Shown: piece after piece, positions 27,678 through 28,488 of the stretch | Layout of the letters: each line of letters opens with the position of its first letter | Position numbering within the stretch: position 1 is the first letter of the stretch | Assembly: GCF_016757735.1 (NCBI RefSeq) | Contig: NZ_CP068439.1 | Span: 2,418,001-2,482,000 of the forward strand | Direction: 5' to 3' | Source: Aequorivita iocasae | Lineage (GTDB): Bacteria > Bacteroidota > Bacteroidia > Flavobacteriales > Flavobacteriaceae | Length of the DNA: 64,000 bases | Program-made: the position numbers and the translations under genes | The notes under the pieces: model-generated | What the model saw: the letters and a program-made list of their open reading frames with translations, nothing else | The model's database searches: none | Told to the model about the DNA's origin: nothing

Positions 27678-27713
27678 AAAAAAAAGCCCGCCAGGTAAAA
27701 AACCTGACGGGCT
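27678..27713 (-). terminator. Attenuator terminator in the asnB leader
   Basis: A 12-bp stem with one U-G pair (27702-27713 with 27685-27696), a 5-nt U loop and a U8 run on the minus strand. It lies between the leader peptide and asnB, 33 nt before the asnB ATG, where a simple terminator would silence the gene unless it is conditionally disrupted. Confidence 0.9.
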
Positions 27714-27734
27714 ATATATCGCGACAAGTTTTTG

Positions 27735-27782
27735 TTACGGCAGCTCGTTATTATTATTGTTATTTAAACTGATGAAATACAT
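27735..27782 (-). CDS. Asn-rich leader peptide of asnB (15 aa)
   Basis: The minus-strand ORF starts at ATG 27780-27782 and ends at TAA 27735-27737. It encodes MYFISLNNNNNNELP with six consecutive Asn codons (AAT AAC AAT AAT AAT AAC) at 27747-27764. Only 21 nt separate its stop from the attenuator stem. The arrangement is that of classical amino-acid attenuation: ribosomes stalled at Asn codons when charged tRNA-Asn is short would leave downstream RNA free for an antiterminator (for instance CUGCCG of the peptide end with CGUCAG of the stem). A run of six Asn directly before an asparagine synthetase is hard to explain by chance. The antiterminator is a proposal only. Confidence 0.88.
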   Translation of the reverse strand: MYFISLNNNNNNELP

Positions 27783-27866
27783 AAACTTGATTTTGTTTGC
27801 AATTGAATTGCTAATTTAAAGTAATTAATTTTATACTTCCAAATATTTATTGAATAAAACGCAAAT

Positions 27867-27966: not shown

Positions 27967-28488
27967 TCAATTCATCAATAATACAATCTCCTGAGGAAGG
28001 GAATCTTTAGGAATTTTATTGCCTGCGGTGTTATAAAACGCATACCTAACGTTGATGTCATCTAAGAGTTTTATCATATAAATCTCCCGTTTTGGGTTGT
28101 AAAAGGTAATAAAGTCTGCATGGCGAATAGTATAATCTTTATAATCACCTTCTACTTTTAGCCTAACCTTTGCGGGAATAATTTCGCTGGGCATAAATTC
28201 GGAATTGAAAATCAGGATACCATTGGGAAGATAGGAAGCCGAAAAGCCCGGGCGGCCATCCTCTTCAAATTTGGCAATGTAGCGTATGTTTTGCGCATCC
28301 TGCATTCCATCCATTTCTTGCACTTGCCATTCGGAAACGAAGTTGGTAGGAAATAATTCTCCTTGACGGTCCAATACGGGTGGGGGGACTTGTGATTCTG
28401 GTATGTAGCGAACATTATCATTAACATCCTGTGCATAGATACCAATACTAATTAAGATACTTATCAATAGCGAAAAAATGTTTCTCAT
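27967..28488 (-). CDS. Secreted hypothetical protein, 173 aa
   Basis: A signal peptide (MRNIFSLLISILISIGIYAQ) is followed by about 150 residues rich in beta-strand patterns (FVSEWQVQEM, NIRYIAKFEED, KVRLKVEGDYKDYTI). No recognised domain and no sorting tail. It lies between asnB and the E1 dehydrogenase gene on the same strand, with 65 bp to the latter. Function unknown. Confidence 0.7.
   Translation of the reverse strand: MRNIFSLLISILISIGIYAQDVNDNVRYIPESQVPPPVLDRQGELFPTNFVSEWQVQEMDGMQDAQNIRYIAKFEEDGRPGFSASYLPNGILIFNSEFMPSEIIPAKVRLKVEGDYKDYTIRHADFITFYNPKREIYMIKLLDDINVRYAFYNTAGNKIPKDSLPQEIVLLMN

Follow-up and report, generated by a model that had tools for sequence, protein, structure and literature searches.

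A putative asparagine-specific transcription attenuator upstream of asnB in one flavobacterial clade

The minus-strand leader of asnB in the window (the whole stretch of DNA analyzed, 64,000 nucleotides) most likely acts as a ribosome-mediated transcription attenuator that is specific for asparagine and senses charged tRNA-Asn, a reading to which, from sequence comparison, we give a probability of about 0.92. In the proposed mechanism, transcription would start a few tens of bases upstream of a short leader open reading frame (ORF), and a ribosome would follow. When asparaginyl-tRNA is scarce, the ribosome would stall on the Asn codons and leave region 2 ahead of it free; free region 2 (AAAAACUUG) would pair with the newly emerging region 3 (CARGUUUUU), the terminator would not form, and asnB would be transcribed. 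A ribosome at the stop codon would cover region 2, and region 3 would then pair with region 4 and transcription would end. In a leader that is not translated, region 1 (CAAGUUU) could hold region 2, likewise favoring the terminator. Sequence comparison provides parts of this scheme, namely, the ORF and its frame, the terminator, helices that compete and carry matched changes, the near-fixed distance from stop codon to region 2, and the link to asnB; the promoter, ribosome stalling, termination, and the response to asparagine are inferred.

The gene downstream of the leader was confirmed to be asnB, as had been proposed from the sequence alone. Its product scored 929.9 bits against the NCBIfam model PRK09431 for asparagine synthase B (cut-off, 499), contains the Pfam Asn_synthase and GATase (glutamine amidotransferase) domains, and has E. 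coli AsnB (1ct9; E, 1e-250) as its nearest solved chain by sequence. An AT-rich gap of 321 nt on the minus strand separates asnB from its upstream neighbor, a 173-amino-acid ORF (27967-28488) that lies on the same strand and has no Pfam match. Within this gap, direct reading bore out both the 15-codon ORF with Asn at residues 7 to 12 and the 12-bp terminator with its U run that the sequence-only reading had described (Table 1); the hairpin begins 21 nt past the stop codon, and the U run ends 32 nt before the asnB ATG (27645). A loose -7-like pattern (TA, 0 to 2 nt, TTTR) was present 25 to 50 nt upstream of the leader start in 47/58 leaders as a raw count.

Table 1. Coordinates of the asnB leader, its parts, and related features (window positions unless another sequence is named)
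Feature	Position	Strand	Basis
asnB, glutamine-hydrolysing asparagine synthetase, 555 aa	25978..27645	(-)	NCBIfam, Pfam, and solved-chain matches
Leader peptide ORF MYFISLNNNNNNELP, 15 codons, ATG 27782 to TAA 27735	27735..27782	(-)	Direct reading; frame bias
Six Asn control codons, residues 7-12 (AAT AAC AAT AAT AAT AAC)	27747..27764	(-)	Direct reading
Region 1, CAAGUUU adjoining the leader start codon, able to pair with region 2	27783..27789	(-)	Fold, permutations
Region 2, AAAAACUUG, 1 nt past the stop codon	27725..27733	(-)	Alignment, stop-to-CUUG distance
Region 3, CAGGUUUUU, pairing with region 2 in the antiterminator and overlapping the terminator 5' arm and loop	27698..27706	(-)	Pairing, swaps
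Intrinsic terminator, 12 bp, loop UUUUU, U run (arms 27713-27702 and 27696-27685; U run 27685-27678)	27678..27713	(-)	Pairing, fold; direct reading of arms and U run
Candidate promoter-like pair TTTG (27843-27840), 16 nt, TACTTTA (27823-27817)	27817..27843	(-)	Sequence
His leader MNKSVLHHHHIFLHALAR and terminator-like hairpin before hisG	L177, about 1342-1480, just upstream of G000:C1:2697140		

The Asn run and the folding of the leader were compared with chance. Dinucleotide shuffling of the 321-nt gap, repeated 20,000 times, gave a run of at least six Asn codons in a short ORF once, and (AAY)6 has a single match in the 3,353,883-base (3.35-Mb) genome, which is the leader ORF. The stretch ACTTGTCGCGATAT likewise has one exact match in its own genome, at the asnB leader; with two mismatches allowed, it matched 14 places there, fewer than the 25 matched by a reversed-pattern control. 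The 130-nt leader RNA folds 4 standard deviations better than its shuffles, with 1/200 as good. When the 3' arm of the terminator is left out, the fold is no better than chance (z = -0.08), and the isolated antiterminator stretch gave a z of -2.70 (1/200 shuffles as good).

The regions upstream of asnB were then compared among 110 loci: a search of 59 related genomes supplied 30, and genome contigs, among which the nearest named record was Aequorivita aurantiaca, supplied the other 80. The set consists of the query's closest relatives and is no random sample. An Asn-containing leader ORF followed by a terminator preceded asnB at 36/110 loci, or 35 without the duplicate of one genome (L031, a copy of the genome of L008). 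A script found 34 of these, and L038 and L039 were added by reading because their Asn codons make no run of three. This comparison, the check suggested along with the sequence-only reading, found an Asn-rich ORF, a terminator, and an antiterminator kept in relatives and so supports the amino-acid-attenuation layout proposed there. The leader was absent from the 72 remaining asnB loci whose upstream sequence reached 300 nt or more, where the longest Asn runs within ORFs were 0 to 3 codons, and among the eight loci titled Flavobacterium, it was absent from seven and present in one metagenome bin (L039). Therefore, the scope "in flavobacteria" first given to the element was too wide, and the leader is instead tied to one clade of AsnB. 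Two loci with short upstream sequence (L074, 7 nt; L086, 174 nt) were unscorable, yet they were entered as "no" in the AsnB tree. In that tree, a quick one of 132 AsnB proteins, a single branch (SH-aLRT, 89; mean of 43.2 changes when shuffled) sets the 58 leader-bearing proteins apart from all others, a pattern that fits a single origin of the leader.

A covariance model (R1) that spans the stop codon, region 2, the loop, and the terminator was built from 32 distinct stretches. Exactly one match at E <=1e-6 was found in 23/28 genomes of the genus, and these are the same 23 genomes that carry this asnB, so that leader and gene co-occur within the genus. The five genomes with no match (G002, G007, G008, G009, and G021; G007 is only 69% complete) are the five without this asnB; they are possible asparagine auxotrophs or may have another route to asparagine. 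Among 397 genomes of the family, 230 had some match at E <=0.01, many of them plain terminators. All of the 30 strongest matches lie before asnB together with an Asn-containing ORF, which at L139 starts with GTG. The same kind of leader was present at L150, at L151, and at 8 of 20 further weaker places inspected, and the other 12 had neither an asnB start nor an Asn ORF. The resulting count of at least 40/397 family genomes, in 25 genera, is a lower bound, given that the places inspected were the best 30, L150, L151, and the 20 weaker ones. In 395 genomes of the order and 395 of the class, samples that include the family itself, no leader was found outside the family at E <=1e-6; the sole out-of-family match (L152) was rejected as a terminator-like hairpin with neither Asn ORF nor asnB.

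Within the genus, the AsnB proteins of L014, L015, L017 to L020, L022, and L023 and those of L001 to L013 occupy separate places in the AsnB tree, and their leaders are very similar, as if the asnB coding sequence had been replaced behind a kept leader. The spacer from terminator to asnB, about 40 nt in the window, is 74 to 165 nt in L002, L003, L008, L012, L014, L015, L017 to L020, L022, and L023, and some of the long spacers contain a CCCCTTGCCCCC...GGGGG repeat. Inspection by eye of the region upstream of asnS revealed no Asn leader.

The leader peptides were examined in 58 distinct leaders drawn from 67 loci, with eight leaders from the later family search excluded. Within the ORFs, 364 of 377 AAY triplets are in frame, with 3 and 10 in the other two frames. 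Each leader has 3 to 10 Asn codons (AAT 258, AAC 106); the lowest number is seen at L134, where the three codons form no run. Asn makes up 364 of the 805 residues after the start (45%), followed by Leu (102) and Phe (64), and Lys occurs only 7 times, although Lys codons are equally A-rich. The last residue is Pro in 52/58 leaders and Thr in 6/58; apart from this residue and the Asn codons, the peptide varies between genera. The distance from the stop codon to CUUG is 6 nt in 55/58 leaders, which sets the stop codon 1 nt before the stretch that resembles AAAAACUUG. The leader is thus a short ORF rich in codons for the amino acid that the downstream enzyme makes, with its coding frame kept and an intrinsic terminator between it and the gene, and it is probably translated.

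The antiterminator suggested by the sequence-only reading (CUGCCG with CGUCAG) did not hold up, as CUGCCG is lost beyond the nearer relatives; the conserved helix is instead that of AAAAACUUG with CARGUUUUU (the 2:3 helix), which pairs in 97.4% of 350 cells over 32 distinct sequences. That share was reached by 0/500 shuffles. Five cells were changed on both sides, for example GAAACUUG:CAAGUUUC versus AAAACUUG:CAAGUUUU; such two-sided changes fall at 2/11 pairs, a value as high in 136/500 shuffles and so unremarkable alone. The terminator (3:4) pairs in 98.9% of 352 cells, with two-sided changes at 6/11 pairs and no shuffle as high. When each region 2 was combined with its own region 3, the mean energy was -7.53 kcal/mol versus -7.04 kcal/mol when swapped, and 0/20,000 permutations were as good; for regions 1 and 2, the corresponding values were -4.52 and -4.26 kcal/mol, with 1/20,000 as good. 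These permutation and shuffle statistics ignore relatedness. By comparison of the sequences, the 2:3 and 3:4 helices appear well supported, and the leader thus has an antiterminator whose formation is incompatible with the terminator and which draws on RNA that a ribosome at the stop codon would cover. The stretch UCGCGAUAUA between regions 2 and 3 (27724-27714) is nearly invariant in the genus and different elsewhere; its CG may lengthen the 2:3 helix beyond a U-U mismatch, which would account for only part of the stretch.

The whole-leader minimum-free-energy fold contains a third helix, in which CAAGUUU upstream of the start codon pairs with AAACUUG. Region 2 is unusual in 10 leaders, and three of these have a fitting region 1: L123 (GAACUUG with CAGGUUC) and L131 (AGCUUG with CAAGCU), for each of which 0/57 foreign region 1s are as good, and L141 (ACCUU with AAGGU), for which 4/57 are. 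In the remaining seven (L023, L036, L041, L125, L135, L139, and L148), the leader's own region 1 is unexceptional, with 14 to 57 of the 57 foreign ones as good. The 1:2 pairing is weak or absent in at least 6/58 leaders (L038, L039, L041, L134, L142, and L148). Judged by these sequences, most of the clade probably forms the 1:2 helix; we give it modest weight, since a fitting region 1 accompanies only three of the ten unusual region 2s, at least six leaders pair weakly or not at all, and relatedness is uncorrected.

To follow the choice between helices, the RNA made so far was folded with a 31-nt ribosome masked in all 58 leaders, and a threshold of 0.5 was applied. With the ribosome on the first, middle, or last Asn codon, the 2:3 helix exceeded the threshold in 50/58, 41/58, and 51/58 leaders, respectively, compared to 31/58 without a ribosome. 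When the mask was moved to the stop codon, the 2:3 helix exceeded it in 0/58 leaders, a result that follows partly from the assumed footprint, and the 3:4 helix did so in 57/58. Region 2 of the window's leader ends 10 nt past the stop codon, and passages in one source put ribosome cover past a stop codon at up to 12 nt (PMC4833913). In free full-length RNA, the terminator exceeded 0.5 in 57/58 leaders, and therefore the choice would have to be kinetic, made during RNA synthesis. For the window's untranslated leader, folded as the RNA made so far and with no ribosome, the 2:3 helix reached 0.71 and 1:2 was not dominant; this value and the 31/58 leaders that form 2:3 without a ribosome indicate that region 1 would guard against 2:3 pairing only modestly, if at all. 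It is conceivable, although we would sooner doubt it, that the leader has a double lock, in which the region 1 pairing that frees the terminator, being placed at the leader start site, also shuts off leader translation, while the Pro or Thr before the stop codon slows release and keeps the ribosome on region 2. If this were true, charged tRNA-Asn would be the direct regulator of asparagine synthesis in the clade.

Other explanations of the locus were weighed against attenuation. The hairpin could simply be the terminator of the upstream 173-amino-acid ORF, which is on the same strand, with the Asn run a chance stretch of low complexity in an AT-rich region; indeed, the inspected weaker model matches that do not precede asnB (12 of the 20 places, and L152) are terminator-like hairpins. 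Chance would not keep a frame across 58 leaders whose Asn codons number from 3 to 10, nor crowd the AAY triplets into it, and the element and asnB are jointly present or absent in 28/28 genomes of the genus. Because this explanation also leaves the antiterminator and region 1 unexplained, we consider it scarcely tenable. A different possibility is a switch that works without a ribosome, such as a T-box-like sensor of tRNA-Asn, an aptamer for a metabolite, or a leader that binds a protein, with at its core the conserved CUUGUCGCGAUAUA, which sits in the antiterminator loop and is nearly invariant among sequences of the genus. That loop varies in other genera (CUUGUACCCUAUA, CUUGUCAAGAACAUA, and CUUGUGCC), whereas the Asn codons and the distance from stop codon to region 2 persist, and an aptamer would have no need of an in-frame Asn run. 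A search of the 64-kb window against Rfam, whose families include the T-box, found no family at the gathering score and hence no conserved T-box leader structure. Such a switch is very unlikely.

It could also be argued that the leader acts mainly at the level of translation, with the short ORF or its peptide controlling asnB through reinitiation or as a small protein. Upstream short ORFs can raise translation by reinitiation, but according to passages in the same source, the effect in Bacteroidetes peaks at distances of 11 to 14 bp (PMC4833913), whereas here a terminator and a further 22 to 165 nt separate the leader ORF from asnB. A role for the peptide itself is at odds with its divergence between genera, outside the Asn codons and the final Pro or Thr. 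We regard control at translation as highly improbable, and transcription attenuation by the ribosome remains the preferred reading.

The gene content of the genome bears on how such an attenuator would be used. The genome encodes an asparaginyl-tRNA synthetase (591.4 bits; cut-off, 342.6) and has one AsnB match, and profile searches of the genome for GatB and AsnA gave no match. The charging of tRNA-Asn would thus appear to draw on free asparagine, whether made by AsnB or taken up. If the attenuator reading is correct, asparagine supply would be gauged by the speed of the ribosome over the Asn codons, and asnB would be on only when asparagine is scarce. In the same genome, hisG (G000:C1:2697140) is preceded by the leader ORF MNKSVLHHHHIFLHALAR, which contains HHHH, and then by a terminator-like hairpin; this is apparently a second attenuator, and the kind of switch thus seems at home in this genome.

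The amino acids for which ribosome-mediated attenuation is well characterized are few. An asparagine leader would add to them an amino acid that has only two codons (AAU and AAC) and needs a single enzyme and a single step for its synthesis, in a phylum where regulation by RNA has received little study. The prediction is that asnB is under the control of charged tRNA-Asn in at least 25 genera, and the switch is compact (about 110 nt) and easily testable. The kind of mechanism is known, and as far as our searches of the open literature go, asparagine is undescribed as the sensed amino acid: in the material covered, no description of an asparagine leader was found, and look-ups in PMC2965389 gave no mention of asparagine or of asnA or asnB.

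The ribosome-mediated attenuators of Proteobacteria include the trp, his, leu, ilv, thr, and phe leaders. The asnB leader shares with these a codon-rich leader ORF, mutually exclusive helices, and a terminator before a biosynthetic gene; it differs from them in the amino acid and gene (asparagine and asnB) and in its restriction, among the genomes searched, to one flavobacterial family. In the trp leader, region 1 lies within the coding part, unlike in the asnB leader, where it lies just upstream of the leader start codon. The step that would be common to all, in which a ribosome on the leader decides between mutually exclusive helices, is described in passages of PMC1183508. Closer to the organism studied here, a passage on Flavobacterium psychrophilum reports "strong clues" that attenuation by leader peptides operates ahead of operons for amino acids (PMC9723704); the bacterial family and the proposed mechanism are the same, and no leader for asparagine or asnB is named in that passage. 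ORFs resembling leader peptides are discussed in general terms for Bacteroides in part of PMC7366714. The hisG leader of the same genome has the layout of the asnB leader (a short ORF, a terminator, and a biosynthetic gene) with another amino acid and another sequence. T-box switches are known at asparagine genes of Firmicutes; they bind tRNA directly and without translation. The asnB attenuator would likewise gauge the charging of tRNA-Asn to control asparagine synthesis.
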